Part shown: positions 45,187-61,325 of the stretch, piece after piece
Position numbering within the stretch: position 1 is the first letter of the stretch
How the letters are laid out: each line of letters opens with the position of its first letter
Assembly: GCA_002300355.1 (NCBI GenBank)
Contig: NSGV01000001.1
Span: 1,674,001 to 1,738,000 of the forward strand
Direction: 5' to 3'
DNA: 64,000 nucleotides
Origin: Streptomyces sp. TLI_235
Lineage (GTDB): Bacteria > Actinomycetota > Actinomycetes > Streptomycetales > Streptomycetaceae
Notes under the pieces: generated by a model
The model's database searches: none
Told to the model about the DNA's origin: nothing
What the model saw: only the letters and a program-made list of their open reading frames with translations
Made by a program: the position numbers and the translations under genes

Positions 45187-45855
45187 ATGACCACCGTCCT
45201 GGAAAGCCCGCTCCACCCGGCGGCCCCCACCGCCCAAGGCGGCACCGCCGCCGTCCGCGTCCTGCTCGCCGACCGACACCACCTGTTCCGCTCCGGGCTC
45301 GGCGCACTCCTCGGCCGGGAGAGCGACCTCGCCGTGGTCGCCGAGTCCCCCACCGCCGAGGAGGCCGCCGCCGAGGCCGCCCGTACCAGGCCCGCCGTCG
45401 CCGTCCTCGACCCGGACCTGCCGGGCCCCGGCGGCCCGGCCACCGCCGCGCTGATCCGCGACCGGGCCCCGGCCACCGCCGTCCTGCTGCTCACCGACCG
45501 GGCCCGCACCGCCGACCTCCAGCGGGCGGTCGCCGACGGGGTGGCCGGCGTCCTGCTCAAGGACGTGCCGCCGGCCGCACTGATCTCCGCCGTCCGGGAA
45601 CTCGCCCGCGGCGGACGGGTCTACGACCCCCGGCTGGTGGTCGACGCGGTACGCGGCGGCGCCTCGCCCCTCACCCCGCGCGAGGTCACCGTGCTCGGCC
45701 ACGTCGCGGACGGCTCCACCATCCACGAGGTCGCCGCCGCGCTCTCGCTCTCCCCCGGCACCGTCCGCAACTACGTCTCGGCGGCGATCGCCAAGACCCG
45801 CGCCCGCAACCGCTGCGACGCGATCCGCATCGCCCGCGAACGCGGCTGGCTCTGA
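45187..45855 (+). CDS. Orphan NarL/LuxR-type response regulator
   Basis: The 222-residue protein has an N-terminal receiver (VRVLLADRHHLFRSGLGALLGRESDLAVVAE ... VAVLDPDLPG with the phospho-acceptor Asp; VLLKDV with the conserved Lys). The second Asp of the acidic pair is Arg (ADR), so canonical phosphorylation may be weakened. The C-terminal LuxR helix-turn-helix is LTPREVTVLGHVADGSTIHEVAAALSLSPGTVRNYVSAAIAKTRARNRCDAIRIA. No sensor kinase adjoins. It is the last rightward gene before the convergent RiPP operon and is a candidate regulator of it. The SD is GAGG before ATG 45187. Confidence 0.92.
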   Translation: MTTVLESPLHPAAPTAQGGTAAVRVLLADRHHLFRSGLGALLGRESDLAVVAESPTAEEAAAEAARTRPAVAVLDPDLPGPGGPATAALIRDRAPATAVLLLTDRARTADLQRAVADGVAGVLLKDVPPAALISAVRELARGGRVYDPRLVVDAVRGGASPLTPREVTVLGHVADGSTIHEVAAALSLSPGTVRNYVSAAIAKTRARNRCDAIRIARERGWL

Positions 45856-45968: not shown

Positions 45969-47456
45969 CTATCCCCTCGCCTGGGGGATCATGTCGGCGA
46001 AGCCGTGGGCGGTGCGGGGGATGCCGGCGGCGCGGCTGCCGATCAGGAATTCACCGACGGAGGACTCGGCCGTCCAGTCCAGGCCGAGGGCCCGTGCGGC
46101 CGCGTCGGTGTCGCCGGAGCCGAGGCCGCAGGGGGCCAACCCCATCGCCGTCGCCACCAGGTAGAGCGTCTGGTAGACGACGCCGACGTGCTTGAGCGTC
46201 AGCGCGTACGCGATCTGGCTGTACTTCCAGGAGAGCCGGCCGAAGCGCGAGGTGACGGTGAGCAGCACCTGCGGGTCGACGCTGCACCCGGTCGCCCGCC
46301 AGGCGGCCGTCATCAGTTCGCGGAACGCCGCCTCGTCGCCCGGCCCGGTGAAGGGCCGGGGCCGCAGCCGGTGCGCGGCCGCGTCGTACCGGTAGACGCC
46401 CGGCACCAGCCCCTCGCAGCGCACCACCGAGAGGTAGACCTCGAGTTCACCGGTGGCGCCGCCGGCCGGGTACGGGCGGTCGACGATGTCGTAGCCGTGC
46501 GGGTCTGCCGGGTCGCCGGGGACGACCCGCCGGACCCGGGCCACCCGGTAGAGCAGTTCGCCGAGTTGGTCGAGGGTGACCGGCCGCTCGGCGTAGCTGC
46601 GGACGGAGCGGCGGCCCTCCAGGACTTCGGAGAGGGCCGGGTCGCGGGCCAGCACCTCGTCCCAGTCGGGGACGGGCAGGTCGATGCCGGCGCCTTCCTC
46701 GCGCGGGCCGGTGCCGGGGATCGCCGGCAGCTGGGCGACGTCGGGGTGGGCGAAGACGCCGCCGCTCGGGTAGTCGTGCCGGCCCGGGCGGCTGCGGGCG
46801 TGGAAGAGCAGGTCGTGGAAGTCCCACAGCGGCGGTTCGCCCTGCGCGGTGTCGTCCAGGAAGCCGGCGCCGGCGAGCAGTCCGGCGAGCGACCGTCCGG
46901 CCGCGGGGGCGAGGCCGGCCAGCAGTGCCGCCTCCGCCACCGGGCGGGAGGCGGTGACCGCCGCGACGAAGGCGCCTGCGGCCGGCCGGTGCAGGGTGAG
47001 CCGGAACGGCGCCGTAGGGGACTCCAGGACGCATGCCCCGGCGTGCTCCTCGGGCAGCCGCCGCAGGTAGGCGAACCGGGAGAGCACCGCGGTGTCGGAC
47101 GGCAGGGTGAGACCGGGCAGTCCGGCCGAGCGGGCGATCGGCACGGCGGTCGCCAGCGGTACGCCGAGCGGGTCGGCGAGCGTGGTGGTGACCAGGTACG
47201 GGAAGCGCCGCAGCAGGTGCAGCAGCCTGCCGCCGACGGGGAGTTCGTCGAGGTCGACCTCGGTGCGGGTGAGTTCGGCGAGCCGGTCGACGGTCTCGGC
47301 GCCGAGGGCGTGCACCCGCTGGCGGCCCCAGGGGTGGCTGAGTTCGAGGTCGTCGCCCTGGGCGGTGACGACGACCTCCGGGCGCAGCCGCAGCAGGGTG
47401 CGCAGGGGGCCGCCGCCGGCCGCGAGGTCGGGCGGCAGCTGTTCGGTCACGGTCAT
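45969..47456 (-). CDS. sagB: SagB-type (McbC-like) azoline dehydrogenase
   Basis: The 495-residue protein has an N-terminal half with a winged-helix/RRE-like character. Its C-terminal nitroreductase-fold SagB domain (about residues 270-490) contains LEGRRSVRSYAERPVTLDQLGELLYRVARVRRV, YPAGGATGELEVYLSVVRCEGLVPGVYRYDAAAHRLR and LKHVGVVYQTLYLVATAMGLAPCGLGSGD. SagB enzymes use FMN to oxidise thiazolines/oxazolines made by YcaO enzymes to thiazoles/oxazoles. A GGAGG SD lies before ATG 47456. It is the last gene of the operon, 59 bases after the YcaO gene. Confidence 0.92.
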   Translation of the reverse strand: MTVTEQLPPDLAAGGGPLRTLLRLRPEVVVTAQGDDLELSHPWGRQRVHALGAETVDRLAELTRTEVDLDELPVGGRLLHLLRRFPYLVTTTLADPLGVPLATAVPIARSAGLPGLTLPSDTAVLSRFAYLRRLPEEHAGACVLESPTAPFRLTLHRPAAGAFVAAVTASRPVAEAALLAGLAPAAGRSLAGLLAGAGFLDDTAQGEPPLWDFHDLLFHARSRPGRHDYPSGGVFAHPDVAQLPAIPGTGPREEGAGIDLPVPDWDEVLARDPALSEVLEGRRSVRSYAERPVTLDQLGELLYRVARVRRVVPGDPADPHGYDIVDRPYPAGGATGELEVYLSVVRCEGLVPGVYRYDAAAHRLRPRPFTGPGDEAAFRELMTAAWRATGCSVDPQVLLTVTSRFGRLSWKYSQIAYALTLKHVGVVYQTLYLVATAMGLAPCGLGSGDTDAAARALGLDWTAESSVGEFLIGSRAAGIPRTAHGFADMIPQARG

Positions 47457-47515
47457 GCGGAGTACCTCCTCCGGGAGGGGCGGGCCGCCGAGCAGCACGG
47501 CGGCCCGGCACGTCG

Positions 47516-49801
47516 TCAGATGAAGATCGGGACGGGGTTGAGATCCTCCTCCCGGGTCGGCCGGTCGAGCCAGCCGAGGGCGAGCGGCACGTCGTAGAGG
47601 CGGCCGGGGGCGAAGCGGGCCCAGAAGTGCCGCATGCCCGGGACGATCACCTTGGCGACCGGCAGGCCGACGTCGGGGCGGGTCTGGTCGAGCACCAGGA
47701 ACTCCATGCCGCGGTCCTCGACCAGGCGTTGGGCGAGCGCGAGGTCGTCGGCGAGGTCGGTGCCGGCGAGCTTCGTCCAGCGGCCGGGGCCGGCGGCCGC
47801 GGTGGCCGGGGCGGGCAGCAGGTGGGGGTTGCCGGCGATCGTGGCCGTGGTCCACCAGGCCTTCTGCTCGGGGTCGGCGCCGGCGTAGCTGACCCGGCCT
47901 TCGGCGTCGCCCGCGACCGGGCCGAGGAACTGGTTCATCTCGGTGAGTGCCCGGGTGAGCGCGATGTGCGGGTCGAGGTGGGCGCCGAAGGCGATCAGGA
48001 TGTCCTCGGCGGGCTTGTCCACACGCCGGGAGAAGGCGCCGACCACCGGGATGCCGAAGTCCGAGGTGAGGTCGAGGGCCCAGATCTCGCGGCGCAGCCC
48101 CCGGTAGACGTCGCGGAGTTCGGCGATGTACGGGTCGTCGAAGGCGTTCAGGTCGACGGCGGGACGCTGCACCCGGTTGTACCACCAGAGGGCGACGGCG
48201 TCGCGTTCGACGAGCTCCAGGAAGCCCTGCAGGGCGGCGTCCTCGAAGGAGGTCCCTGCCGCGCAGCCGTTGGAGTCGCCGGCGGCGAAGAAGCCGTTGC
48301 GGTGCCGGTAGCCGTAGTAGAGGGACATGGTGGGCAGCCAGCGGGTGCGCCGCTCGGTGAGCGACCAGGCGGGCGACCATTCGATCCGCTCGTCCTCGCG
48401 GAACCGCTCGGGCACGGTGTTGAACATCGAGCGGCGGGCGTTCCAGCGGGCCCGCTCCTCGTACTGGCGGTCGCTGTACAGCAGGGTGCGGGCGGGGTGG
48501 ATCGCGGCGTCGCCGAGTTCGGTGAAGTTCGCGGTGCGGCGGGCCTCGTCGCCCTGGAAGACGCCGGAGTAGCGCTCCATGGCCTCGCCGAGCGCGCTGG
48601 CCCGGGCCTGGACGTCGGTGCGGCCCTTGCCGCAGCTCACCGAGCGCAGGCCGGTGCGGAGTTGGCGCAGGTCGCCGCTCTGCCGGGAGAGGTTCTGCCC
48701 GGAGACGTACACCCGCAGGCCGGTGGGGGTGCGGGCGGCGGGCACCAGCGAGGTCACCACGCCCGTCACCGGGGAGAGTTGGGGCCGGTAGCGGTCCAGC
48801 ATGTCCTCCGGCGAGGCGGAGCGGTGGCCACCGTCCGCGGTGAACGCCTTGGGTCGGGAGGTGAACGCGACCGGGGCGAGCTGGCGTTCGGCCATCAGGC
48901 CGGGGTCGCCGCAGGACGGGCACTGCGGGCGGCGCACCAGCCGGTGGCGTTCGGCCTCCAGCAGCACGGTGTCGAAGGTGAGCACCACCGGCTCCGAAGG
49001 GCGCACCCCGGCGAGCCACTTGGCGGCCTCCAGGGCGGCGAGCTGGGCGCCGGTGCCGAGGGTGGGTGCGAGGTGGGCGCCGGCGGTGGAGATCGGGGTG
49101 TCCTGGCCGAGCCGGTGCTGCAGGTAGCTGAGCGACTGGCGGTTGGCGGAGAGCCGGTGGGCGAGGCACTCCCAGCAGCCGGTGGCGTCCTCCCCGGAAC
49201 CGGAGGCCCCGGAACCGGGGGCCCCGGCGCCGGGGACGAAGACCGGGCCGACCCAGACGATCGAGCCGACCGGGCGGGCGAGCAGCCAGGGGCGGCCGCT
49301 CTCCCGGGCGGCGCGGTCGCGGTCGGCGAGCCCGGGGTGCAGGTAGTCCTCGGTGAGGGCGACGGTGAACTCGGCGCCCTCGTCGACGGTGACGCCTGCG
49401 GCGGCGAGCGCGTCGAGGAAGGGCTGCGGATCGAGGTCGCCGTACACCTCGACGCGGGCCCGGGAGGTGCGCAGCGTCGCGGAGGCGGCGGCGCCGTCCA
49501 GTCCGGCCATCTCCAGGTAGGCGGCGCCGGCCGGGTCGTCGACCGGCCCGGCGGGGGCGAGGTAGCCGCGGTCGCGGAGGGTGCCGACGGCGCCGAGCAC
49601 CTTGTCGGCGGGCACCGTGCCGTCCAGGGCGGCGCCGATCTGCTCGGCGCTGCGGGTGCCGTCCAGCAGCGGGGCGAGACGCTGGGCGAGGGCGCCGTCG
49701 ACCACGGAGACGCCGCGTTCGGAGACCAGGTAGACGGCCTCGCCGTCGACGACGTACGGGGTGTAGTGGCGTTTGAAGCCGATCGCGGTGGTGTCGGACA
49801 T
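47516..49801 (-). CDS. Fused E1-like/YcaO azoline-forming cyclodehydratase
   Basis: The 761-residue protein combines the two subunits of a TOMM cyclodehydratase. Residues 1-85 form a winged-helix leader-binding element (RRE: KRHYTPYVVDGEAVYLVSERGVSVVDG). Residues about 90-330 are the E1-like part with a four-Cys zinc site (C-W-E-C and C-P-S-C). The rest is YcaO, with ATP-site motifs in SALGEAMERYSG and EDAALQGFLELVERDAVALWWYNR. The Pro-rich C-terminus (LNPVPIFI) is typical of active cyclodehydratases. It would convert core Cys and possibly Ser/Thr to azolines using ATP. It lies 25 bases after the LanM gene. Confidence 0.95.
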   Translation of the reverse strand: MSDTTAIGFKRHYTPYVVDGEAVYLVSERGVSVVDGALAQRLAPLLDGTRSAEQIGAALDGTVPADKVLGAVGTLRDRGYLAPAGPVDDPAGAAYLEMAGLDGAAASATLRTSRARVEVYGDLDPQPFLDALAAAGVTVDEGAEFTVALTEDYLHPGLADRDRAARESGRPWLLARPVGSIVWVGPVFVPGAGAPGSGASGSGEDATGCWECLAHRLSANRQSLSYLQHRLGQDTPISTAGAHLAPTLGTGAQLAALEAAKWLAGVRPSEPVVLTFDTVLLEAERHRLVRRPQCPSCGDPGLMAERQLAPVAFTSRPKAFTADGGHRSASPEDMLDRYRPQLSPVTGVVTSLVPAARTPTGLRVYVSGQNLSRQSGDLRQLRTGLRSVSCGKGRTDVQARASALGEAMERYSGVFQGDEARRTANFTELGDAAIHPARTLLYSDRQYEERARWNARRSMFNTVPERFREDERIEWSPAWSLTERRTRWLPTMSLYYGYRHRNGFFAAGDSNGCAAGTSFEDAALQGFLELVERDAVALWWYNRVQRPAVDLNAFDDPYIAELRDVYRGLRREIWALDLTSDFGIPVVGAFSRRVDKPAEDILIAFGAHLDPHIALTRALTEMNQFLGPVAGDAEGRVSYAGADPEQKAWWTTATIAGNPHLLPAPATAAAGPGRWTKLAGTDLADDLALAQRLVEDRGMEFLVLDQTRPDVGLPVAKVIVPGMRHFWARFAPGRLYDVPLALGWLDRPTREEDLNPVPIFI

Positions 49802-49826
49802 GGCGGTCCCTCGGGGTCTCGGGCGG

Positions 49827-52800
49827 TCAGCGCAGGGTGGCGAGCGGGGCGGTGGCGGGGTCGAGCAGACGCAGCAGCAGCAGGCCGACGGCGGCGGTGC
49901 CGTCGAGGGCGCAGAGGTTGATCCGGTCGTCGGCGGCCCGGTCGGGGTGCCAGCGGCCGGTGGCCTCGTGCCGGGCGATCAGCTCGCCGACGAGCAGTCC
50001 GGCGGCTTCCCTGCCGTCGTAGAACGGGCCGGGCAGCAGCGTGTCGGTGCCCTCGGGGACGGTGTGCAGCAGGCCGGCCTCGGCGGCGGTGAGTGCCTCG
50101 CCTGCGGTGGCGACCAGGTCGCGGGTGGTGCGGCCGGCGATTCCGGCCGCGCCCACCGGTGGGGTGAGGGCGCCGAGTTCGGCCGGGTCGACGCTGCCGG
50201 CGCCGAGCGAGACGGCGGTGTCCAGGCAGGCGAGCCGGCCAGCCCGGGTGGCGGTGGCGAACAGGTGTCCGCGGAGGCGTTCGCGGACGGTCTCGGGGGC
50301 GGCGAGCAGGGTGGGTGCCTCGGCGAGGGTGCGGGCGAGGGCGGCGGCGACCGAGTCGGGGCCGGCCGGGACGAGGTCGAGGAAACCGTTGTCGGCGCTC
50401 TCCTCGGCGTCCTCCGAGCTGAGGCTGGCCAGCGCGGCGGCGGCGAGGGTGTGGATGCCGTCCTCGGTCGGCGTGTGGCCGGGGCCGGTGGCGCGGCGCA
50501 GCCGGAGCAGGTTGAGCAGCAGTCCGGCGGTTCCCATCGGGGTGTCGGGCTGCGGGGTGCGGATTGGGCGTCCGGGGCGGGCTGGGGCGGGGGTGGCGAC
50601 GGCGAGCGCGCCGGGCACCAGGGCCTGGGCACGGGTGAGGAGTTCGGGTTCGCCGAGCAGGAGGCCGGCCCGGGCGAGGGCGTGGATCAGCGAGCCGGGG
50701 CCGGCCAGTCCGCCGGGGACGGGGGCGCCGGCGGCGAGCCGGCTGTCGGCGGCGAAGGCGAAGCCGCGCGGGGAGTCCGGGTCGATGAGGCCGGCGGCGG
50801 TGGTGAGGGTCTGCAGGGCGGCGCGGTGGAAGCGGGGTTCGCCGGTGGCGGCCCAGAGTTCGGCGAGCAGCACGGCGAGGCCGGGGGTGCCGGTGACGAG
50901 GTCGAGGCCGAGCACCTCGACCTGGCGCAGGCCGGTGCCGGGGTACCAGCTCTGGCCGAGCCAGCCCTGGCCGCGCCGGTCGGCGAGGATGCGGTCGCCG
51001 ATCCGGACGGCGTGGCCGAGGAGTTCGCCGGAGCCCGGGGTGGTGGTGCGGCGGGCGCGGCCGGCGGGCGGGGCGGGCAGTTCGGTGCCGGCCCGGGCGG
51101 CGTCGATGCAGCCGGTGAGGACGGCGAGGTGGGCGTCCAGGTCGAAGGTGTCGAGTTCGGCGACCCGGTGCTGGAGGCGCTGCCAGCCGGTGCCCTGGAA
51201 GTGGCCGGGGATCTCCCGGCCGTCGGCGGTGAAGACCGAGGAGGAGGTGGTGAGGGAGCGGAAGAACGGGATGTCGAGCACCCGGTAGGAGTCGAGTTCG
51301 GCGAGGACGACCTCCAGCAGGTCGCCGCGGCCGGGGTCGCCGGCGCGGGCGGTGACGGCGCCGTGCAGGGCGCCGGCGATGACCGTCTCTCGGGTGGCCC
51401 CGCTGTCGAGGGCGAGCGGGCTGGTCGAGGCGCGGACGATCTTGTACCCGTCCCAGGTGTGCCGCCAGATGTAGCGCACCCAGATGCCCCGGAAGGGTGC
51501 CAGCGGGCCGTCCGCGGACGCGAGTTCGCCGCGCAGCGCGTGGAGGGCGGCGTGCATCTCGCGGTAGCCGGCGGTGAGGTCGTCGGTGTACTGCCACGGG
51601 TCGGCGGTCCGGCCGTCGTGGACGGGCCGGTACGGGGGCAGCGGCAGCGCGGGCACGCCCGGGGCGACCTCCAGGCTGCCGATCCGGGAGAGGCAGCCGA
51701 TGTCGAGGGCGCCGGAGTGCTTGGCCGGTGTCCAGGCCTGGAAGGCCATCGCGGTGCGCACCACGGTGGACTCCAGTTCGTCCAGCAGGCCGTGCTGGCC
51801 GGGGCTGAGCACCGGCGGCGCCTGGACGCGCGGGTAGAGCAGGCACTCCAGGTCGATCAGCGCCGGGTGCTCGCCGTCGGCGATCAGGTTGTCGGCCCAC
51901 AGGTCGCGGCCCTCCAGCAGCTGGACGAGCCGGATCGTCATGCCGAGCCGCCGGTAGAAGCGGGCGAAGCCGCCGCGGTCGGCGCAGGGGCGGTGCGGGA
52001 CGAGCTCCTCCCAGCCGTAGTCGCTCTCGCAGTTGGCGGCGAGCGAGGCGCCGTGGCCGTCGTCGCCGCGGTCGCTGCGCAGCAGCACGGTGCGCACCGG
52101 CAGGTCGAGCGGGAGTTCGCGGTTGAGTCGGCGCACCAGGTCGAGGTAGGCGGCGGCGTGCCGCATGTCCTTGGGCTTGTAGACGACGGCCCGGCCGCCC
52201 GCGAAGTGCAGCAGGGCGACCGAGCGGCCGCCGGCGTGCCGGTCGCCGGCGTCGCCGCGGACCTGGTCGAGCGGCCCGGGGTCCTCGCCCTGCCAGAGCT
52301 GCTCGACCAGCAGGGCGCGGTCGGCGGCGAGCCGGGCGAACAGCTCGGTCTGCACGTACTGCCACTGCCGGCAGACCGTGCCGACCAGGTGGGCGAGGGC
52401 GGGCAGCCGCTCCAGCCGGGCCAGCCAGCCCTCCACGGAGGTGTCCAGGCCGCCGGCGGCGTCCCAGTCGGTGGCGCGGGGGCGGCCGGTGGCGGCCTGC
52501 AGTTCGTGGCAGAGCGAGAGGTTGCAGGCCTCGGTGAGCCGGGCGGTCAGGGTGCCGGCCAGGTCGGCGCGGGCCCGGTCGGTGACGGGGACGCCGAGGA
52601 TGCCGCCGGGGCCGTCGGGCAGCAGCGCAGCTGCGGCGGCCCCGAAAGCGGCGGTGAGGGCGCCCGGCACGGCGGTCCTGGGGCCGGGCACGGTGGGCAG
52701 GGTACGCAGGAAGGCGGCCAGGGCGAGGGCCCAGGGCGGCAGTTCGCCCGGGTCGGCGAGGATGACGGGGCGCAGGCCGTCACCGAGCGGCCGGCCGGTC

Positions 52801-53105
52801 TCGGCGAGGTGGTCGAGCAGCACGCCGGCGCCGCCGTGGCCGCCGGCCGCCCGCCGCAGCCAGGTGTCGACGGCGGCGGCGCGGGTGCGCCGGTCCTCGT
52901 CCGGGTCGGGGGCGAAGTACGCGGTGCCGTCGGAGCGGGCGGCCGCCCGGTCGTCGAAGGAGGCCGCGGCGGTCACCACGGCGCGCAGCCGCTCGTCGCC
53001 CCGGGCGGTACCGGGGAGCAGCCGGGCGGGGCCGGCGCCCTGGTCGGCACGCCCGTCGGCGGCGGTGTCGGCGGGGCGGAGCCAGGTCTGCAGGTCGAGC
53101 GACAT
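49827..53105 (-). CDS. lanM: LanM-like lanthipeptide synthetase with degenerate cyclase domain
   Basis: The 1092-residue protein has a LanM dehydratase domain (residues about 130-640). Kinase residues are visible: Lys310 in VVYKPKD, Asp401 and Asn406 in RDLWADNLI, and Asp418 in ALIDLECLL. The His usually two residues after the first Asp is Trp403. Arg544 and Thr550 keep the spacing of the phosphate-elimination pair. The C-terminal LanC-like half retains glycine-rich helix motifs (LVTGTPGLAVLL; GGLAGPGSLIHALA; LDGTAAVGLLLLRLLDP) but has no W-C-x-G and no C-H-G zinc ligands. It probably dehydrates Ser/Thr without zinc-dependent ring formation. ATG 53105 is one base past the exporter stop. Confidence 0.92.
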   Translation of the reverse strand: MSLDLQTWLRPADTAADGRADQGAGPARLLPGTARGDERLRAVVTAAASFDDRAAARSDGTAYFAPDPDEDRRTRAAAVDTWLRRAAGGHGGAGVLLDHLAETGRPLGDGLRPVILADPGELPPWALALAAFLRTLPTVPGPRTAVPGALTAAFGAAAAALLPDGPGGILGVPVTDRARADLAGTLTARLTEACNLSLCHELQAATGRPRATDWDAAGGLDTSVEGWLARLERLPALAHLVGTVCRQWQYVQTELFARLAADRALLVEQLWQGEDPGPLDQVRGDAGDRHAGGRSVALLHFAGGRAVVYKPKDMRHAAAYLDLVRRLNRELPLDLPVRTVLLRSDRGDDGHGASLAANCESDYGWEELVPHRPCADRGGFARFYRRLGMTIRLVQLLEGRDLWADNLIADGEHPALIDLECLLYPRVQAPPVLSPGQHGLLDELESTVVRTAMAFQAWTPAKHSGALDIGCLSRIGSLEVAPGVPALPLPPYRPVHDGRTADPWQYTDDLTAGYREMHAALHALRGELASADGPLAPFRGIWVRYIWRHTWDGYKIVRASTSPLALDSGATRETVIAGALHGAVTARAGDPGRGDLLEVVLAELDSYRVLDIPFFRSLTTSSSVFTADGREIPGHFQGTGWQRLQHRVAELDTFDLDAHLAVLTGCIDAARAGTELPAPPAGRARRTTTPGSGELLGHAVRIGDRILADRRGQGWLGQSWYPGTGLRQVEVLGLDLVTGTPGLAVLLAELWAATGEPRFHRAALQTLTTAAGLIDPDSPRGFAFAADSRLAAGAPVPGGLAGPGSLIHALARAGLLLGEPELLTRAQALVPGALAVATPAPARPGRPIRTPQPDTPMGTAGLLLNLLRLRRATGPGHTPTEDGIHTLAAAALASLSSEDAEESADNGFLDLVPAGPDSVAAALARTLAEAPTLLAAPETVRERLRGHLFATATRAGRLACLDTAVSLGAGSVDPAELGALTPPVGAAGIAGRTTRDLVATAGEALTAAEAGLLHTVPEGTDTLLPGPFYDGREAAGLLVGELIARHEATGRWHPDRAADDRINLCALDGTAAVGLLLLRLLDPATAPLATLR

Positions 53106-53106
53106 C

Positions 53107-55386
53107 TCACATCTCCTGGAGTCGGGCGAGGCGGGTGAACAGCGGGTCGGTGCCCAGCAGTTCGTCGTACGTGCCGGTGGCGGTGACCCGCCCGCCGGAG
53201 AGCACGTGGATGCGGTCGGCGGTGCGGACGGTGCTGAGCCGGTGGGCGATGACCACGCGGGTGGTGTCGAGGCCGGCGACGGCCTCGGCGACCTTGCGCT
53301 GGGTGGCGTTGTCGAGGGCGGAGGTGGCCTCGTCCAGCAGCAGGACGGCGGGCCGGCGGACGAGGGCGCGGGCCAGCAGCAGCCGCTGGACCTGGCCGCC
53401 GGAGAAGCCCTGGGCGTCCTCGCCGATCCGGGTGCCCAGGCCGAGCGGCAGGCGCCGCAGGTCGTCGGCGATGCCGGCGAGTTCGGCGGCGGCCCAGACC
53501 TGGTCCTCGGTGACCTCGCTGTCGGTGCCGGCGAGGTTCTCCAGCAGCGAGCCGCGCAGCATCCGGCCGTGCTGGAGGACGGCGCCGAGCCGGCGGCGGA
53601 CCAGCCGGGCGTCGAGGGTCGCGAGGTCGCGGCCGTCGTAACGGACCGTCCCGGACTCCGGCCGCTCGAAGCCGAGCAGCAGCCGGACGAGGCTGGACTT
53701 GCCGGCGCCGGACGGGCCGACCACGGCGACCAGTTCCCCGGGCGCGGCGTGCAGCGAGACGCCGTCCAGGGCGGGGGCGGCGGTGCCCGGGTAGCGGAAC
53801 ACCACGTTCTCCAGGGCGACTTCGCCGCGCAGCGGGCCGGGGTCGGCGAGCGCCTCCGCCCGTTCGCGCGGCCCGCTCTCGGCGAGGATCGGCCGGAGCC
53901 GGTCCAGTACCGGGGCGATGCCGTAGGCGCCTGCCGCGGCGTGGGTGACCTGGCCGAGCGCCATGGCGACCTGGCCGGCCGCGACACCGGCGGCCATCAG
54001 GTGCCCCGACGGGGTGTCCCCGGCGGCCGTCGCGCCCGCCAACAGAACGGCCAGCAGCAGCGGTTGCAGGGCGGCGGTGACCGCGCCGGCCGCGGCGTCG
54101 GTCCGCTGGGCGGCGGCGTCGGCCCGCTTCTGGGCGGCGAAGGGCACCGCCCAGCGGGCGAAGGCCTGGATCTCCCGGCCCGCGGTCTGGATCTTGTCGA
54201 TGCCGAGCAGCAGCCCGTAGAGCACGCCCTGCAGCCGGCCGTGCAGGGCGAACACCTCGCTCTCGTACCGTTGCCGGCGGCGGCCGAGGGCCAGCAGCAG
54301 CCCGGTGACCGCCAGCACGGCGACCAGCAGCAGCCCGCCGAACCACGGGTCGACCAGCAGCACCACGGTCAGGCCCGAGGTGGCGAACACCGCGCCGAGC
54401 ACCGCGCCGACCAGCACCTCGGACATCGCCTGGCGGGCCTGGGCGACCGCGTTCGCCCGGTGCACCAGGTCTCCGGTGGTGAAGTCGCGGAAGAACCGGG
54501 CGTCGTGGCCCAGCAGCCGGTCCCAGACGGCCGGTTCCAACGCGGACTGCACCCGCCCGGTCAGCCGCACGGCCGCCGTGTTGCGGACGAGCACCAGCAG
54601 CCAGGACGCCGCCACCGCCGACCCCAGCAGCAGGGCCAGCCAGCGGACGGGGTGCCGGTCGGCCGCCAGCAGCTGCGGCAGCAGCACACCGGTGCTGAGC
54701 GGCACCAGCAGGCCGAGCAGGGCGGCGGCCAGTCCGGCCGCGGTGAGCCGGGCGAGGTCCCGGCGGGCACCCGGCACGGCCAGCACGAACCGGGCCAGTC
54801 CGGCCGGGCCCAACTCGCCGGGCGGCAGCGGCGGGTACAGCAGCAGGGCCCGCCGCTGCAGCGCCACCCGGTCCTTGCGGCCGGCGGGCCGGCCGACCGC
54901 CGGGTCGTACGGCCGGTGGCCGCCGGCCGGGCGCGGCACCAGGGCGATCGGGCGCCCGTCGTCCGCGGCGAAGCCGACCACCGGCCCGGCCAGCCCGGCG
55001 GGGTCGCCGTGCCCGTCCGCGCCGGCCGGCAGGGTGATCGGGCGGGACCGCACCCCGGCCGACCGCAGCAGCGCGGCCAGCGGGTCACGGGCCGTCCGGA
55101 CGGCGGCGGGCAGGCCGCCGTCCGCGGCCGGGGTTCCACCGGCGCGGTCGAGGCCGAGCGCGACCAGCACGGCGCGGGCCTGCCCGGCCGGGTCGGCCGC
55201 GGCGGGCGGGCCCGCGGCGCCGCAGGAGCCCGCGGCGTGCAGTTCGCCCAGGGCCGCGGTCAGCGCCGACCGATTGGCGGCGGCGGTGGCGGCCGGGCCG
55301 GTCGCCGGCGTGGTGGCCGGGCCGGTCGCGGGCGTGTCGGCCGCCGTGCGGGTGGTGGCGCGGGCGGCGGTCGTGGTGACGGTCAT
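53107..55386 (-). CDS. NHLM-type ABC exporter (permease-ATPase, no active peptidase)
   Basis: The 759-residue half-transporter has a roughly 250-residue Ala/Pro-rich N-terminal extension with a direct repeat (A-T-G-P-A-T-T-P-A-T-G-P). Six membrane helices follow (LARLTAAGLAAALLGLLVPLSTGVLLPQLLAADRHPV onward), then an ABC ATPase with Walker A GPSGAGKSS, signature FSGGQVQ, Walker B LLLDEAT and H-loop IAHRL. It matches the second ABC protein of NHLM bacteriocin systems, which pairs with the peptidase-bearing exporter. ATG 55386 overlaps the upstream stop (ATGA). Confidence 0.92.
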   Translation of the reverse strand: MTVTTTAARATTRTAADTPATGPATTPATGPAATAAANRSALTAALGELHAAGSCGAAGPPAAADPAGQARAVLVALGLDRAGGTPAADGGLPAAVRTARDPLAALLRSAGVRSRPITLPAGADGHGDPAGLAGPVVGFAADDGRPIALVPRPAGGHRPYDPAVGRPAGRKDRVALQRRALLLYPPLPPGELGPAGLARFVLAVPGARRDLARLTAAGLAAALLGLLVPLSTGVLLPQLLAADRHPVRWLALLLGSAVAASWLLVLVRNTAAVRLTGRVQSALEPAVWDRLLGHDARFFRDFTTGDLVHRANAVAQARQAMSEVLVGAVLGAVFATSGLTVVLLVDPWFGGLLLVAVLAVTGLLLALGRRRQRYESEVFALHGRLQGVLYGLLLGIDKIQTAGREIQAFARWAVPFAAQKRADAAAQRTDAAAGAVTAALQPLLLAVLLAGATAAGDTPSGHLMAAGVAAGQVAMALGQVTHAAAGAYGIAPVLDRLRPILAESGPRERAEALADPGPLRGEVALENVVFRYPGTAAPALDGVSLHAAPGELVAVVGPSGAGKSSLVRLLLGFERPESGTVRYDGRDLATLDARLVRRRLGAVLQHGRMLRGSLLENLAGTDSEVTEDQVWAAAELAGIADDLRRLPLGLGTRIGEDAQGFSGGQVQRLLLARALVRRPAVLLLDEATSALDNATQRKVAEAVAGLDTTRVVIAHRLSTVRTADRIHVLSGGRVTATGTYDELLGTDPLFTRLARLQEM

Positions 55387-57662
55387 GCCCCCTCCTGGGT
55401 GCCGGTCGCCCGGTCGGCGAGCAGCGTGCGGTACGGGCCCGGTACGGCGGCGAGTTCGGCCGGGGTGCCCTGCTGGACGATGCGGCCGCCGGCGAGCACC
55501 ACCACCCGGTCGGCGGCCTGCACGGTGCTCAGCCGGTGGGCCAGCACCAGGCAGCTGGTGCCGCGGCGGCGCAGGTGCGTGTTGACGGCGGCCTCGGTGT
55601 GCGCGTCGAGCGCCGAGGTGGCCTCGTCCAGCACCAGCAGGGCCGGCTCCAGGGCCAGCGCGCGGGCGAGTTCGAGGCGCTGGCGCTCGCCGCCGGAGAG
55701 GTTGCGGGCGTCCTCCTCGATCCGGGCGCCGTCCGGGCCACCGCGTCTGCGGACCAGGTCGGCGGCCTCGGCGTCCTCCAGTGCCCGGTGCAGGGCGTCC
55801 TCGGGGAGTGCCGGGTCCCAGAGTGTGAGGTTCTCCCGGACGGTGCCCTCGAAGAGCCGCAACTGCTGTTCCACATAGGCCACCTGGGCGGTCACGACGG
55901 CGCGGTGCCAGTCGTCCCTGGGGCGTCCGTCGAGCAGCACCCGGCCGCCCCAGGGGCGCAGCACCCCGGCGGCGAGCCGGGCCACGGTGGACTTGCCGCT
56001 GCCGCTGGTGCCGACCACGGCCACCCACTCCCCCGGTCGGATCCGCAGCGAGATGCCGGAGATCGCGGGCGGGCGGTTGGGGTCGTAGCCGAAGGACACG
56101 TCCTGGAGCTCCAACTCGCCGGTCAGTCGGACGGGCTCGGCCGGGGCGTCGAGGACGGGGGTGAGGAAGGGGTCGGGCTCGGTGGTCTCCACGTCCTCCA
56201 GCAGCGCGTTCTGCGCCCGGGCGATGGTGAACTCCGATCCTGTTCCGACTAGTTGGCCGACCGGCAGAAGGAAGCCGTTGAGCAGCAGCAGGAAGGCCAC
56301 CAGGGTGCCGAGGGAGAGCGAGCCGCCGAGCAGCAGCGAGGTGCCGGCCACCACCACGGTCGCGGTGGCCGCCGAGTTGAGCGCGCCCGGCAGCGAGAGC
56401 GGCACGATCACCGCGGCGGTGACCTTCTGGCCGGTCTCCATCGCCCGGGCCTGCCAGCCCGCCCAGGAGCGGAAGAAGGAGTCCTCCGCGCCCTCGGCCT
56501 TCACCGTCTCGATCGCCGACACTCCGGCGAAGGCCACGCCGTCGCGCTTGTACTGCTCGGCGTGCAGCCGGTGCACCAGGCCGCCGCGCCGCCGGTCGGC
56601 GACCCGCAGCGCGAGCACGTCCAGCACGGCCACCGCGACGGGCACCGCGGCCAGCCGGGGCTCCAGCCAGGCCAGTGCGCCCAGGTGGACGGCGGCCGCG
56701 GCGGCGGAGGCGGCGGCGCCCGCGGCCCGGTACGAGAGCAGGGCGGCCAGGCCGTCGTTCATCTGCACCCGGGTCACCAGGCCGCCGAGCTGCCGGCGGT
56801 GGAAGAACGAGCCTGGCAGCCGCAGCATCCGCCACAGGAAGCCGGAGGCGCCGCGGGCCGCCATCGCCTCCAGCACCCGGTTGACCAGGCTCTGCTGCAG
56901 CCAGGTGCCGAGCAGCACGGTCGCGGCGACGGCAGCCGCCGTCAGGGTGAGCGGCAGCGCCCAGGAGGCGGTGCCGGCCAGGGTCACCGAGGTGAGGTAG
57001 GCGCGCAGCAGGAAGGCCGCCGCGACGCCGGGCACCGCGAGCAGCACCGCCAGCAGCACGGCGAGCAGCAGCGGACCGGCGAACGGGCGCATCCGGCCGG
57101 CCAGGGCGCGCAGCAGCGGAAAGCGGCGGCCGCCGCGCTCGAAGTCCGGACCCGGCTCGAAGCCGACGGCGATCCCCGCGAAGGATTCCCAGAACTCCGC
57201 CGGCGAGGCCGAATAGGAGCCCAGGGAGGGGTCGTTGATGTGCACCCGGCCGCGCCGGACGCCCTCGAAGACGGCGAAGTGCGGGCCGGTGACCAGCACC
57301 ATCGACGGCACCGGCACCTTGTCCAGGCCGAGCAGGCGCCCTTCCGCGCGGACCACCCGGCGGCCGCGGGCCGTGAGCCCGTACCGGCCGGCGGCGCGGG
57401 CCACCGCGGCGGCGCTCACCCCGTCCCGGCTGACCCCGCAGGCCCGCGACGCCTCCTGCAGGGTGACCCGCCGCCCGAAGGCGCCGAGCACCACGGCCAG
57501 GCAGGCCGCGCCGCAGTCCTGCTCCTCCATCTGCGGGACGACCGGGGTGCGGAGATACCGGCGCTGCCCGGGCTTCCTCCGCGACGGTCCGGCCCCGGAG
57601 TTCTTCGGGGCCCTTGTCGTGCTGTCGGCGCCGGCCGGGGTCTCCCGGACGTCGAGGCTCAT
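55383..57662 (-). CDS. C39 peptidase-ABC exporter (PCAT, NHLM type)
   Basis: The 759-residue protein begins with a C39 peptidase domain with Cys50 (EEQDCGAACLAVVL), His128 (TGPHFAVFEG) and Asp144 (INDPSLGSY). A six-helix exporter and an ATPase follow (VVGTSGSGKST; LSGGERQRLELARALALEPALLVLDEATSAL). It should cleave the precursor after its Gly-Gly and export the core peptide. It starts at ATG 57662 in ATGA overlap with the membrane-fusion gene and ends overlapping the next exporter gene. Confidence 0.95.
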   Translation of the reverse strand: MSLDVRETPAGADSTTRAPKNSGAGPSRRKPGQRRYLRTPVVPQMEEQDCGAACLAVVLGAFGRRVTLQEASRACGVSRDGVSAAAVARAAGRYGLTARGRRVVRAEGRLLGLDKVPVPSMVLVTGPHFAVFEGVRRGRVHINDPSLGSYSASPAEFWESFAGIAVGFEPGPDFERGGRRFPLLRALAGRMRPFAGPLLLAVLLAVLLAVPGVAAAFLLRAYLTSVTLAGTASWALPLTLTAAAVAATVLLGTWLQQSLVNRVLEAMAARGASGFLWRMLRLPGSFFHRRQLGGLVTRVQMNDGLAALLSYRAAGAAASAAAAAVHLGALAWLEPRLAAVPVAVAVLDVLALRVADRRRGGLVHRLHAEQYKRDGVAFAGVSAIETVKAEGAEDSFFRSWAGWQARAMETGQKVTAAVIVPLSLPGALNSAATATVVVAGTSLLLGGSLSLGTLVAFLLLLNGFLLPVGQLVGTGSEFTIARAQNALLEDVETTEPDPFLTPVLDAPAEPVRLTGELELQDVSFGYDPNRPPAISGISLRIRPGEWVAVVGTSGSGKSTVARLAAGVLRPWGGRVLLDGRPRDDWHRAVVTAQVAYVEQQLRLFEGTVRENLTLWDPALPEDALHRALEDAEAADLVRRRGGPDGARIEEDARNLSGGERQRLELARALALEPALLVLDEATSALDAHTEAAVNTHLRRRGTSCLVLAHRLSTVQAADRVVVLAGGRIVQQGTPAELAAVPGPYRTLLADRATGTQEGA

Positions 57663-58576
57663 CGCGCGACCCCCTTGCCGAGCACCGCCTGGTAGGGGTG
57701 GCGGGCACCGAGATCGACCTCGGCGGTGACGGGCAGCGGTCCGGGCAGGCCCGCTGCCGACTGCTGCGCGGCGGCCGCGAGTTCGGCGTACGCCGTCCAG
57801 ACCGGGGCCGAATCGGTGGGCAGGCCCGGGAGCGGGACGGGCAGCGTGCCGTCCAGCGAGTCGGCCCGGGCGGGCAGCGGGTCGACCGCGGTGATCACCG
57901 CCCGGACTGCTCCGGCCCCGGGAACCGGCACCAGCACGGTCCGCCCCGGCCGAAGCTCCCGGGCCTGTGCCGGGTCGGTTGCGAACAGCCGGATGGTGAG
58001 CGGGAGTTCGATCGGATCGAGGGTGAGGACGGGGACGCCTGGGGCGAGTTCGGCGCCGGGGGCGGCGAGCAGGGCGGTGACCGTGCCGGCTCGGGTCGCC
58101 CGGAGCTCGCTCCGGCGGCCGTCGGTGCCGCGCAGTTCGGCGACGGCCTGGCCGGTCGCCACCCGCTCACCGGGGCTCACCAGCAGCCGGGCGAGGGTAC
58201 CGGGCTGGTCGGCCCGGACGGTCGCGGGAGCCGCGCCGTGGGCCACGACCGCGTTCACCGGCAGGGTGTGCGGCAGGGTGCCGAAGGCGACCCAGGCCGC
58301 CCCGGCACCCACCGCGAGCAGCAACGCCCCGGCGGCGGCCGACAACCGCGCACCGACGAGCCTGACGGGCTGGTCCAGGCCGGGTTCGAGCACGGCCGCG
58401 GTCGGCGCGGGCCCCGTCCGGTCGGCAGTCGGCGGCACGGTCGGGTCCGGGGCTGCGGCTGCGGCTGCGGCTGCGGCTGCGTCCGGGGGGTGCGCGGCCG
58501 CGGTGTCCGGTGTCGTGGTCGGTGCGGCGGTTCCACGGCCGCGGCGGTTGCGTTTTCCGGTGACGGTTCCGCTCAT
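57659..58576 (-). CDS. HlyD-like membrane-fusion/adaptor protein of the NHLM system
   Basis: The 305-residue protein has a 70-residue low-complexity N-terminus containing a poly-Ala run. A single membrane helix follows (AAGALLLAVGAGAAWVAFG), then a biotinyl-lipoyl-like hairpin (VRADQPGTLARLLVSPGERVATGQAVAELRG ... LRATRAGTVTALLAAPGAELAPGVPVLTL) and a beta-rich end. Adaptors of this type accompany NHLM exporters even in Gram-positive bacteria, where they may organise the exporter at the outer membrane face. It overlaps both neighbours by ATGA. Confidence 0.88.
   Translation of the reverse strand: MSGTVTGKRNRRGRGTAAPTTTPDTAAAHPPDAAAAAAAAAAPDPTVPPTADRTGPAPTAAVLEPGLDQPVRLVGARLSAAAGALLLAVGAGAAWVAFGTLPHTLPVNAVVAHGAAPATVRADQPGTLARLLVSPGERVATGQAVAELRGTDGRRSELRATRAGTVTALLAAPGAELAPGVPVLTLDPIELPLTIRLFATDPAQARELRPGRTVLVPVPGAGAVRAVITAVDPLPARADSLDGTLPVPLPGLPTDSAPVWTAYAELAAAAQQSAAGLPGPLPVTAEVDLGARHPYQAVLGKGVAR
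58451..58480. repeat. Five tandem copies of GGCTGC encoding poly-Ala
   Basis: The hexanucleotide is repeated five times in the N-terminal linker of the membrane-fusion gene. Slippage would change only the length of the Ala run, since the unit is in frame. Confidence 0.9.
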
Positions 58577-59823
58577 GCCTGCCCCACCCCCGTCAGGACC
58601 GGCCGGGGCGGGCAGTGCAGCGGGAGTGCGCGCAGGCCGCCGAAGACGAACTGGGTGCTCCAGGGGGCGGTTTCCGCCGTCAGCGGGGTGCCGAGCTCGC
58701 GGCTCTCGTGGGCCGCGGCGAGGCCGCGCAGGACGGCGGCGCCGGCCATCAGGGAGAGCGGTGCGCCGAGGCAGTGGTGCGGACCGTGGCCGAAGGCCAG
58801 GTGGCGAAGCTCGGCCCGGTCCGGGTCGAAGCGGTCGGGGTCGGCGAAGCGCCGCGGGTCGCGGTTGGCGGCGGCGTACAGCAGCAGGGCGACCCGGCCG
58901 GCGGGGATGACGGTGCCGCCGACCTCGACGTCGCGGGTGAGGGCGCGGGCGCTGGCGCGGACGGGGCTGCCGAGGCGCTGGGCCTCGTCGAAGACGGCGA
59001 CCGCGTCGGCGGGTCGGGCGCGCAGGCGTTCGGCGAGGCCCGGCGTGTGGAGCAACTGCCAGACGGCGACCGCCAGGCCGGAGGTGAGTGTCTCCAGGCC
59101 GTTGGCGAGCAGCATGACGACGAAGGCCAGCAGGTCCTGGTCGTCGAGTCGGCCCTCGGCGCGGGCGACGGTGAGCCGGCTGATCAGGTCGTCGCCGGGT
59201 TCGGCCGCCCGCGCGGCGCAGAGTTCCTCCACATAGGCGCGGAACTGGTCGAATTCGGTGTCGAGTTCGGCGATGCGGGCGGCGCCTTCGGTGCCGTTGA
59301 AGTCGTCGAGCAGGGAGCGGGCGACCAGGCGGGCCCAGCCGGTGACGCGGTCCTGCTCGCTGTCGGGGATGTCGAGGATGGCGCAGGAGACGGCCACCGG
59401 CAGCGGCACGGCGAGGTCGGTGACGACGTCGAACGAGCCTGCGGCGAGCAGGGGTTCGAGCAGCCGCTCGGCGGTGGACTCGATCCGGCCGCGCATCTGC
59501 TCCAGCCGGCGGGCGCTGAAGGCGGTGGTGGCGAGCCGCTTGAGGCGGGTGTGGTCGGCGCCGTCGCGCATCGGCAGCATCCGGTCGACCACCCGGGAGA
59601 GCGCGGTGGCGCCGGCCCGGGGCAGGCCGACGGAGGCGGGGTCGACGGCGGTGCCGGGGTGCATGAGGACGGTGACGATCTCCTCGTAGCCGGAGACGAC
59701 GTGCACCCGGCCGAGGTCGAGCACCGGGGCCTCGGCGAGCAGTCGGCGGTAGAGCGCGGGTGGGTCCTGCTGCGCGGCGGGCTGTTGGATGAACCGCGTC
59801 AGCTCGTGCCGGAGGCTGTCCAT
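58573..59823 (-). CDS. Cytochrome P450 of the RiPP cluster
   Basis: The 416-residue P450 has a non-canonical I-helix (LLANGLETLTSG), E-x-x-R in DEAQRLGS, the R-D-P-R-R-F-A-D-P-D-R-F meander and the haem loop FGHGPHHCLG with Cys351. ATG 59823 is 103 bases downstream of the precursor stop, and its stop overlaps the adaptor start (ATGA). It probably hydroxylates, epoxidises or crosslinks residues of the modified peptide. The position and type of oxidation cannot be predicted. No ferredoxin gene is present in the cluster. Confidence 0.93.
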   Translation of the reverse strand: MDSLRHELTRFIQQPAAQQDPPALYRRLLAEAPVLDLGRVHVVSGYEEIVTVLMHPGTAVDPASVGLPRAGATALSRVVDRMLPMRDGADHTRLKRLATTAFSARRLEQMRGRIESTAERLLEPLLAAGSFDVVTDLAVPLPVAVSCAILDIPDSEQDRVTGWARLVARSLLDDFNGTEGAARIAELDTEFDQFRAYVEELCAARAAEPGDDLISRLTVARAEGRLDDQDLLAFVVMLLANGLETLTSGLAVAVWQLLHTPGLAERLRARPADAVAVFDEAQRLGSPVRASARALTRDVEVGGTVIPAGRVALLLYAAANRDPRRFADPDRFDPDRAELRHLAFGHGPHHCLGAPLSLMAGAAVLRGLAAAHESRELGTPLTAETAPWSTQFVFGGLRALPLHCPPRPVLTGVGQA

Positions 59824-59926
59824 GCCCGGCTCTCCTCAACTGGGTCGGTGGTGGTTCTGAGTTGGGGCGGAAACAGGGGTGCCGCGGTGGAACCCGCCAG
59901 GCGGGCCCACCGCGGCACGGAACCCG

Positions 59927-60091
59927 TTACTCCGCGGCGGTCTCGGCGACCGAGTTGGACACGGAGCTGAAGCTGGAGACCGGGCAGGCGGCGCAGGCCA
60001 GCGAGCTGACGCTGATGCCACCGTTGACGGTGTCGAGCTCCTCGACCTCGATGTCGAACTGCTCGTTCTCGGTGATCTCGTTCTCGGCCAT
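59927..60091 (-). CDS. RiPP precursor peptide with double-glycine leader
   Basis: The 54-residue peptide starts at ATG 60091 with a GGAGGGAG SD. The leader (residues 1-25) is acidic and contains F-D-I-E-V-E-E-L-D-T-V-N-G-G, combining the FDxEVEEL-type recognition motif of azole peptides with a C39-cleavable Gly24-Gly25. The 29-residue core has two Cys (core positions 8 and 11, in L-A-C-A-A-C-P), nine Ser, one Thr and no Lys or Arg. Ser-Ser pairs occur at core positions 4-5, 14-15 and 17-18. It is the first gene of the operon. Cys are the likely thiazole sites, and Ser may become oxazoles or dehydroalanine. Confidence 0.93.
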   Translation of the reverse strand: MAENEITENEQFDIEVEELDTVNGGISVSSLACAACPVSSFSSVSNSVAETAAE

Positions 60092-60356: not shown

Positions 60357-61325
60357 ATGACATCCACCATCAGCTCCGGAATTCCCGGGACAGCAGCCGT
60401 GGAAGTGCGGGACCTGCACCGCCGCTACGGCGACTACGAGGCGGTGCGCGGTGTTTCCTTCACCGTGGCCCGCGGCGAGCTCTTCGCCCTGCTCGGCACC
60501 AACGGCGCCGGCAAGACGACCACGCTGGAGGTGCTGGAGGGCTACGGCCCGCCGAGCTCCGGCACGGTGCGGGTGTTCGGCCTGGACCCGTACGCGCAGG
60601 GGCCCGAGGTCCGCCGCCGGACCGGCGTGATGCTCCAGGAGGGCGGCTTCTTCAAGGAGTTGACCGTCCGGGAGACGGTCGACTCCTGGCGGTCCTTCCT
60701 CACCGGGCCGCGGCCGACCGCCGAGGTGCTCGGCCAGGTCGGTCTCACCGAGCGGGCGGACACCCGGGTCGCCCAGCTGTCCGGCGGCGAACGGCGCCGC
60801 CTCGACCTCGCGCTGGCCGTGCTGAACGACCCCGACCTGCTCTTCCTGGACGAGCCCACCACCGGCATGGATCCGGAGGCCCGCCGCACCACCTGGCGGA
60901 TCGTCAAGGAGCTCCAGGCGGCCGGCACCACCGTCCTGCTGACCACCCACTACCTGGAGGAGGCCCAGCAGTTGGCCGACCGGGTGGCCATCATGGACCG
61001 CGGCCGGCTGGCCGCGGTCGGCACGGTGGACGAGGTGCTCGCCGGGCACGGCACCCGGATCACCTTCCCGCTGCCGTCCGGTGTCAGCGAGGCCCGACTC
61101 CCGCAGGTGCTCGGTGAGTCGGCAACCGTCTCGGACGGCGTCGCAACGTACACCGCGACCCGCACCGCCCCGGCGCTGGCCGCCCTGCACACCTGGGCCG
61201 CCGAGTGGTCGGTGGAGCTGGACGGCATCGAGGTGCGGTCCGCCTCCCTGGAGGACGTCTTCCTGGAACTGGCGCACGACGGCCGCGGCAAGGACGCGGC
61301 ACACGAAGGGACGGCTGCACGATGA
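60357..61325 (+). CDS. ABC transporter ATP-binding protein (ABC-2 type, immunity/export)
   Basis: The 322-residue ATPase has Walker A LLGTNGAGKTTT, Q-loop MLQEGGF, signature LSGGERRRLDLALA, Walker B LLFLDEPTTGMD and H-loop TTHYLEEA. A C-terminal extension of about 80 residues typical of CcmA/drug-exporter ATPases follows. It overlaps the permease gene by ATGA. Being divergent from the precursor operon, it is probably a self-protection or secondary export system. ATG 60357 lacks an SD; GTG near 60402 is an alternative. Confidence 0.92.
   Translation: MTSTISSGIPGTAAVEVRDLHRRYGDYEAVRGVSFTVARGELFALLGTNGAGKTTTLEVLEGYGPPSSGTVRVFGLDPYAQGPEVRRRTGVMLQEGGFFKELTVRETVDSWRSFLTGPRPTAEVLGQVGLTERADTRVAQLSGGERRRLDLALAVLNDPDLLFLDEPTTGMDPEARRTTWRIVKELQAAGTTVLLTTHYLEEAQQLADRVAIMDRGRLAAVGTVDEVLAGHGTRITFPLPSGVSEARLPQVLGESATVSDGVATYTATRTAPALAALHTWAAEWSVELDGIEVRSASLEDVFLELAHDGRGKDAAHEGTAAR

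Follow-up and report, generated by a model that had tools for sequence, protein, structure and literature searches.

The dehydrazoles, carnazolamide among them, were described in 2023 from about 50 clusters that pair a YcaO protein with a LanM-type dehydratase, one of which, in Streptomyces sp. SN-593, also carries a cytochrome P450 (PMC10676384). Carnazolamide biosynthesis was reconstituted by Pei, Zhu and Nair from the cca cluster of Chryseobacterium carnipullorum, where the dehydratase CcaM, of the LanMbC type, dehydrates a Ser only where an azole immediately follows it, independently of the leader; for one dehydrazole cluster, several precursors with highly divergent leaders are reported (PMC10676384). 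The operon considered here lies on the minus strand, running from 60091 down to 45969, of a 64,000-nucleotide stretch (the window) of the 9.25 Mb genome of Streptomyces sp. TLI_235. With a probability of about 0.8, its 54-residue precursor and dehydrazole-type enzymes would turn the conserved core into a linear peptide bearing roughly five azoles and three dehydroalanines (Dha). The combination of LanM and azole chemistry, which a sequence-only reading of the window had put forward as a new biosynthetic logic, was already described for the dehydrazoles (PMC10676384) and for nostatin A (PMC11583998); new is the short-leader, P450-bearing branch with a constant core and an exchangeable leader.

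Other described systems bear on the comparison. Nostatin A, the natural product of a related Nostoc cluster (nst), was isolated in 2024 and is made of tripeptides of the form Dha or dehydrobutyrine (Dhb), heterocycle, free residue (PMC11583998). In goadsporin, azoles arise from T2, T5, C8 and S15, and Dha, which requires prior azoles, from S4 and S14 (PMC5303826). YcaO genes in some class II lanthipeptide clusters were noted by a 2020 survey (PMC7268733), and the one paper in the literature searched where LanM, YcaO and Kitasatospora occur together (PMC9576775) deals, in the passages concerned, with ordinary lanthipeptides and thioamitides. In the literature searched, the terms dehydrazole, carnazolamide and LanMbC were found in PMC10676384 only.

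The window shares with the dehydrazoles a DUF4135 enzyme beside YcaO, a cyclase half free of zinc ligands, an azoline dehydrogenase and a core rich in Ser and Cys. The described dehydrazole clusters have a long nitrile-hydratase-like leader, whereas the window has a short leader, C39/NHLM-type exporters and a P450, and the epimerase and methyltransferase of dehydrazoles/cca were not found in its cluster; the P450-bearing cluster of SN-593 may be of the same subfamily. YcaO, an oxidase and a LanM-like protein are likewise common to the nostatin A cluster, which differs in its 30-residue core, long leader, epimerase, further radical SAM chemistry and modified proline. Goadsporin (god cluster, Streptomyces) resembles the window product in its short leader, of 30 residues, and linear core, but is made with the split LanB-type GodF/GodG, which uses glutamylation, and with N-acetylation, neither found among the scanned proteins of the cluster. 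The class II synthetases CylM and LicM2 share the DUF4135 fold and most catalytic residues, whereas the window enzyme has lost zinc-site residues, has Trp for an active-site His and is linked to YcaO. A characterised cluster thus exists for the core enzyme logic, an outcome that the sequence-only reading had named as counting against itself. For precursor and product it does not: neither the core string ACPVSSFSS nor any product of a short-leader, P450-bearing member was found in the literature searched.

The operon and its near-constant core

Domains were called from profile matches to Pfam and NCBIfam, with curated cut-offs, in ten proteins of the operon and its neighbours; nine further neighbour proteins were scanned in Pfam alone (E up to 0.001). 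Eight genes were confirmed, in the order precursor, P450, HlyD-like adaptor, two NHLM-type exporters, DUF4135/LanC-like protein, leader-binding/YcaO fusion and SagB, so that the YcaO fusion, SagB, LanM-like protein, P450, NHLM exporters and single precursor earlier read from 45969 to 60091 were all confirmed, and azole machinery and a LanM-type dehydratase do share one operon and one precursor. Loci were fetched through the LanM-like protein, as the best 80 of 166 relatives, and their genes matched with phmmer (E up to 1e-4). All eight genes were matched together and in the same order at 15 of 16 Streptomycetaceae loci, and because of this the operon is not a chance grouping. The sixteenth locus (L015), at a contig end, is a short fragment bearing LanM alone and was dropped from locus counts, residue table and trees; in three of the 15 complete loci (L007, L009, L011) some operon genes are in broken frames. 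Since a flanking DrrAB-type exporter, a response regulator and a LuxR-type regulator were matched at all 15, the conserved cluster likely extends from about 43007 to 62212, wider than the interval first drawn, within which the eight genes themselves do fall. The nearest named relatives are Kitasatospora, the LanM-like proteins of the window and of Kitasatospora sp. DSM 101779 being 93% identical. Of 297 sampled Streptomycetaceae genomes, 30, counting the window's own, contain the precursor; they belong to 2 of 17 genera.

The YcaO domain scores 332 bits with PF02624 and 274.6 with the SagD-type TIGR03604 (cut-off 219.25), the leader-binding domain fused to it scores 125.1 with TIGR03882 (cut-off 36.9), and the azoline dehydrogenase is SagB, above the cut-off of TIGR03605. 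For ABC1, ABC2 and the HlyD-like protein, the small gene between P450 and ABC1, an NHLM family is the best match in each case, all below the curated cut-offs (693.6 against 853.3, 603.1 against 709.4 and 29.9 against 156.2). The P450 contains FGHGPHHCLG, which we take to be the haem-ligand motif, and a P450 also adjoins the precursor in the myxobacterium Minicystis rosea (L017). Two Micromonosporaceae loci (L028, L031) have a P450 of a distant kind, beside another core.

The precursor consists of a short leader ending in NGG, a 21-residue conserved core ISVSSLACAACPVSSFSSVSN and an 8-residue tail, SVAETAAE. That it is a real gene, as had been proposed, is supported by 35 matching proteins (the identical P0121 may be the window's own) and by its place as first operon gene at all 15 complete loci; its only NCBIfam match, to the thiocillin family of ribosomally synthesised and post-translationally modified peptides (RiPPs), reaches 23.0 bits against a cut-off of 25. 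For comparison a set of 45 was assembled from the window's precursor and 44 proteins (the 35, P0121 included, and 9 from a second search), leaving out P0156, which repeats the Minicystis precursor with additional residues upstream. These contain 22 distinct cores, and all 45 fit the pattern [ILV][SA][VI]SS[LI]x[CS]xACPVSSF[SG]S[VIL][SA]N, in which positions 4, 5, 10-16, 18 and 21 are invariant. The predicted azole positions 5, 8, 11, 15 and 18 are Ser or Cys in every case (at position 8, 37 precursors have Cys and 8 have Ser), and the predicted Dha positions 4, 14 and 17 are Ser throughout, except for Gly at 17 in two of the 45. Ser2 and Ser20, which do not stand ahead of a predicted azole, are replaced by Ala in 6 and 4 precursors. 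The observed variation is what the CcaM rule leads one to expect, because azoles at 5, 8, 11, 15 and 18 would put Ser4, Ser14 and Ser17 directly before azoles; core conservation thus fits dehydration at such positions only.

The core can be divided into ISV SSL ACA ACP V SSF SSV SN, a tripeptide pattern as in nostatin A and, in the form X-[S/T/C]-X, in goadsporin. All six modified positions of goadsporin (azoles 2, 5, 8 and 15; Dha 4 and 14) are Ser or Cys in the window core, a fit with p 0.004 by permutation of the core with the register fixed, and the match is suggestive, a hint of kinship rather than proof.

The dehydratase and the predicted pathway

In the LanM-like protein a DUF4135 domain (PF13575, 270 bits) is followed by a LANC_like match exactly at the cut-off (23.2/23.2). 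An alignment of the window's protein with 27 of 120 listed homologues was made, and residues were tabulated for 39 YcaO-linked enzymes (the window's included) against 93 others, CcaM not being among the sequences, with the roles of catalytic residues taken from work on CylM (PMC4550811). The kinase and elimination residues equivalent to CylM D252, H254, K274, D347, N352, D364, R506 and T512 are kept in 39/39. Two columns of the cyclase half, the best for Cys and taken as the zinc ligands on their Cys frequency and motif rather than by alignment to CylM, hold Cys in none and in one of the 39, in neither case in the window, against 80 of the 93 others, and the WCxG and CHG motifs are absent at all 38 YcaO-linked loci. 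Thioethers are not expected, because the zinc-site residues are lost; the protein fits the LanMbC type as judged from sequence, and the description "lanthipeptide-type", taken to mean thioether rings, is not supported for it. The column of CylM His349 is Trp in 37 of the 39 and His in 83 of the 93 others.

This substitution raises the possibility that azoles alone are made, the LanM-like enzyme being an inactive scaffold that has lost its active-site His; in CylM, H349A lowers activity (PMC4550811). Such an inactive role is quite unlikely, and was rejected, given that the other catalytic residues examined are all kept, that CylM H349A still dehydrates slowly (PMC4550811), and that a Trp-type enzyme stands beside the nostatin A core, whose product contains both Dha and Dhb (PMC11583998). 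The last point comes from locus L035 of Nostoc sp. KVJ20, which encodes the core printed for nostatin A and so acts as a positive control within the data; a Trp-type enzyme therefore occurs in a type of cluster whose product is proven to contain Dha and azoles. A word search of the main text of PMC10676384 gave no mention of Trp or tryptophan. The change from His to Trp would serve as a simple sequence mark for azole-dependent dehydratases. As side observations on this enzyme type, P0067 has a YcaO domain and most of a Trp-type DUF4135 domain directly linked within a single reading frame, as a fusion or an assembly artefact, and seven short DUF4135 proteins of 831-849 residues (P0074, P0075, P0082, P0085, P0089, P0091 and P0096) have Trp at the His column.

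It is very unlikely that the product is a true class II lanthipeptide with extra azoles, in which the LanC half would join Dha to Cys and YcaO modify the rest. The DUF4135 and LANC_like architecture would agree with this, LicM2 is the nearest solved structure to the predicted model of the enzyme, and of the two core Cys, Cys11 is invariant, and a thioether there is compatible with the sequence. The idea was rejected on the loss of zinc-site residues, the WCxG and CHG motifs being absent at every YcaO-linked locus, and on the exchange of Cys8 for Ser in 8 of 45 precursors, which makes a thioether at that position not general; the curated class II LanM cut-off is also just missed (301.2 against 304). 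Least likely of all, despite the short thiocillin-type leader, the goadsporin-like register and Dha before azole, is a goadsporin- or thiopeptide-like pathway in the strict, homologous sense, which was rejected since no LanB-type, pyridine synthase or acetyltransferase family was found among the 19 scanned proteins (ten in Pfam and NCBIfam, nine in Pfam) and in the trees the enzymes fall together with those of the dehydrazole type from Minicystis and Streptosporangiaceae. The LanM-type enzyme likely stands in the role that the split LanB has in goadsporin and thiopeptides, as the sequence-only reading had suggested.

For the preferred pathway to azoles and Dha, the following steps are proposed. 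The leader-binding domain of the YcaO fusion would grip the DIEVEEL strand of the short leader, and YcaO and SagB would make azoles first, at core positions 5, 8, 11, 15 and 18, with position 2 optional. The LanM-like enzyme would then phosphorylate and eliminate Ser4, Ser14 and Ser17, each directly before an azole, independently of the leader and with no thioether rings formed. The P450 would add an oxidation, the C39 exporter would cut after Gly-Gly and export the product, and DrrAB would protect the producer. With 5 azoles and 3 Dha, the calculated [M+H]+ would be 1861.778 for the core of 21 residues and 2620.123 if the tail is retained, increased by 15.995 should the P450 hydroxylate once.

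Leader exchange and history of the cluster

The window leader is 25 residues long with a Gly-Gly end, and is not the long nitrile-hydratase-like leader that marks a proteusin precursor. In Minicystis rosea, precursor, P450, LanM-like protein, YcaO and SagB stand in the same order, with no exporter match among the operon genes of that locus, and the precursor there joins a nitrile-hydratase-like leader to the core IAISSLACIACPVSSFSSLSN. By sequence, a nitrile-hydratase-like leader with nearly the same core is also present in P0155 and P0158-P0165, probably metagenomic. TIGR04351, the model of such leaders in thiazole/oxazole-modified microcins, was matched in all eight precursors tested (P0155, P0157, P0160-P0165), above its cut-off in P0155 only. 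Because P0155 passes both this model (65.8, cut-off 65) and the thiocillin model (27.2, cut-off 25), it joins the short-type and long-type leaders. Ahead of the nitrile-hydratase-like leader, P0162-P0165 have a twin-arginine motif, as of the twin-arginine translocation (Tat) route; TIGR01409 is above its cut-off in P0162, P0164 and P0165 and below it in P0163, and the Pfam Tat model is under its cut-off in P0162 and P0164 and gives no match in P0163. By eye, the N-terminus of P0161 resembles a Sec-type signal.

An alignment of ten precursors has, the first Met excepted, all its invariant columns in the core. The core thus stays near constant while the leader is exchanged, being short, nitrile-hydratase-like, or the latter with a Tat-type signal. 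The DIEVEEL of the short leader aligns with DLSIEEL of P0155, an L(X)4L-type strand of the kind bound by YcaO recognition domains; in the proteusin system MprC, the folded leader is required besides this motif (PMC12455567). The strand alone was not sufficient for a long leader there, and by analogy the short-leader YcaO has presumably adapted. At all 16 Streptosporangiaceae and Micromonosporaceae loci, nitrile-hydratase-like precursors, found with an ad hoc motif, carry other cores; loci L018-L031, L034 and L037 often have at least three precursors each, with differing cores rich in Ser, Thr and Cys. A search of Myxococcota with the Minicystis precursor matched 4 of 377 genomes, one of them Minicystis itself; of the other three matches, two cover leader residues only and the third is weak (40% identity, residues 48-118 of 124).

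A concatenated tree of LanM, YcaO and SagB was built from 17 hand-picked rows, the window and 16 of the 36 YcaO-linked loci in L001-L037 (L036, L052 and L064 being among those outside it; L011, with a broken LanM, is outside the single-gene trees). Minicystis and Streptomycetaceae form one clade there (100/100). By the approximately unbiased test (p-AU), a clade of the 13 actinobacterial rows without Minicystis was rejected (8.5e-6), as was the grouping of Minicystis with the Streptosporangiaceae and Micromonosporaceae rows (2.7e-5). The SagB tree agrees at 97/95, with a warning of long branches meeting at that point; a quick, midpoint-rooted LanM tree sets Minicystis, several other proteins and Streptomycetaceae apart from Streptosporangiaceae and Micromonosporaceae; the P450 tree does not resolve at its base, and the viewed part of the YcaO tree did not include Minicystis. 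These sequences would be explained most simply if the cluster had moved from one phylum to another, its core and enzymes travelling together while the leader and the export route were exchanged. When plasmids were searched with YcaO and LanM, 20 records were returned; in all of them coverage of the query stayed below 80%, and the best matched the YcaO end. Against plasmids, tblastn of P0162 gave no match.

A broader account, to be held tentatively and with the odds somewhat against it as a whole, can be drawn from these findings. Two phyla, and probably uncultured bacteria beyond them, would produce a near-invariant azole/Dha core by means of interchangeable modules for delivery. One module would be a short leader ending in Gly-Gly, paired with a C39 exporter; another, the folded nitrile-hydratase-like leader; in the third, this leader would bear a Tat signal and the precursor would be exported through the Tat system. 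What would permit the exchange is that the dehydratase recognises the core with its azoles rather than the leader, and Trp in place of His would belong to an azole-reading, enolate-free active site. RiPPs usually keep the leader and vary the core; here the reverse would apply, which would indicate that both the molecule and its target are conserved. If selection maintains the core as leaders, signals and exporters change, the family would be a natural leader-swap experiment, and would open the question of whether leader-independent dehydration frees a RiPP from its leader; a core partly in the goadsporin register but made with another dehydratase would mean that two enzyme chemistries reach a similar scaffold.

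Several observations weigh against these interpretations. Goadsporin presumably has an azole at position 12, where the window core has Pro. In 16 short-leader precursors the ratio of non-synonymous to synonymous polymorphism (pN/pS) is 0.60 in the core against 0.35 in the last 16 leader codons, so that within Streptomycetaceae this test gave no sign of the core being more constrained than the leader. Part of the homologue set was collected through words shared between cores, a procedure biased towards conserved cores. No such bias affects the 15 Streptomycetaceae loci and Minicystis, which were reached through LanM only and every one of which has the core. The His is retained in two cyanobacterial YcaO-linked enzymes, and seven of the 93 others have Trp. 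The branch of Minicystis in the trees is long and its letter composition differs from the rest, and the tested clades were chosen after the single-gene trees had been made, so the trees are to be read with caution. Every dehydrazole cluster is stated in PMC10676384 to have a long leader, and together with MprC this suggests by analogy that recognition of a short leader is not to be taken as given. No mass or structure data for short-leader members were found.

Cluster surroundings and minor observations

The features of the cluster are collected in Table 1. The DrrA-type ATPase was also matched at 13 of the 16 Streptosporangiaceae and Micromonosporaceae loci, and the exporter would likely serve self-protection or additional export.

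Table 1. Genes of the operon and its conserved flanks, with positions in the window and supporting matches
Feature	Positions	Strand	Evidence
Precursor peptide, 54 residues	59930..60091	-	ribosome-binding site upstream; 35 matching proteins; first operon gene at 15/15 complete Streptomycetaceae loci
Cytochrome P450, probable tailoring oxidase (predicted)	58573..59823	-	PF00067, 81 bits
HlyD-like adaptor	57659..58576	-	PF13437, 26.9 bits (cut-off 22.2); NHLM_micro_HlyD weak match, 29.9 (cut-off 156.2)
NHLM-type exporter (ABC1, ATP-binding cassette) with C39 peptidase	55383..57662	-	TIGR03796, 693.6 bits (cut-off 853.3); PF03412
Second NHLM-type exporter subunit (ABC2), permease/ATPase	53107..55386	-	TIGR03797, 603.1 bits (cut-off 709.4)
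LanMbC-type dehydratase (predicted): DUF4135 kinase/lyase and LanC-like domain without zinc-site residues, Trp403 for active-site His	49827..53105	-	
Leader-binding domain fused to YcaO cyclodehydratase, predicted azoline former	47516..49801	-	TIGR03882, TIGR03604, PF02624 above cut-offs
SagB-type flavin dehydrogenase, predicted oxidation of azoline to azole	45969..47456	-	TIGR03605, 153.5 bits (cut-off 78.4); PF22767, PF00881
DrrA-type ABC ATPase	60357..61325	+	PF00005; drrA best NCBIfam match, 232.3 bits (cut-off 312.45)
ABC-2 permease, DrrA partner	61322..62212	+	PF01061; matched at 15/15 complete loci
NarL/LuxR-type response regulator, likely cluster regulator	45187..45855	+	PF00072, PF00196; 15/15 complete loci
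LuxR-type regulator, possible cluster edge	43007..44605	-	PF00196; 15/15 complete loci

The response regulator and SagB genes converge, and the gap between them holds, at 45880-45945, a long and almost perfect inverted repeat, noticed by eye and probably a terminator shared by the two. A flavin amine-oxidase-type gene (62238-63812) follows DrrAB and is also present in the two nearest relatives (L001, L002); it was unmatched at the other 13 complete loci, where little sequence past DrrAB was covered. The window has a second P450 gene outside the cluster, at 16550-17803, and the same genome encodes a more distant LanM-type protein with 35% identity (L082, G000:C1:48821-51115).

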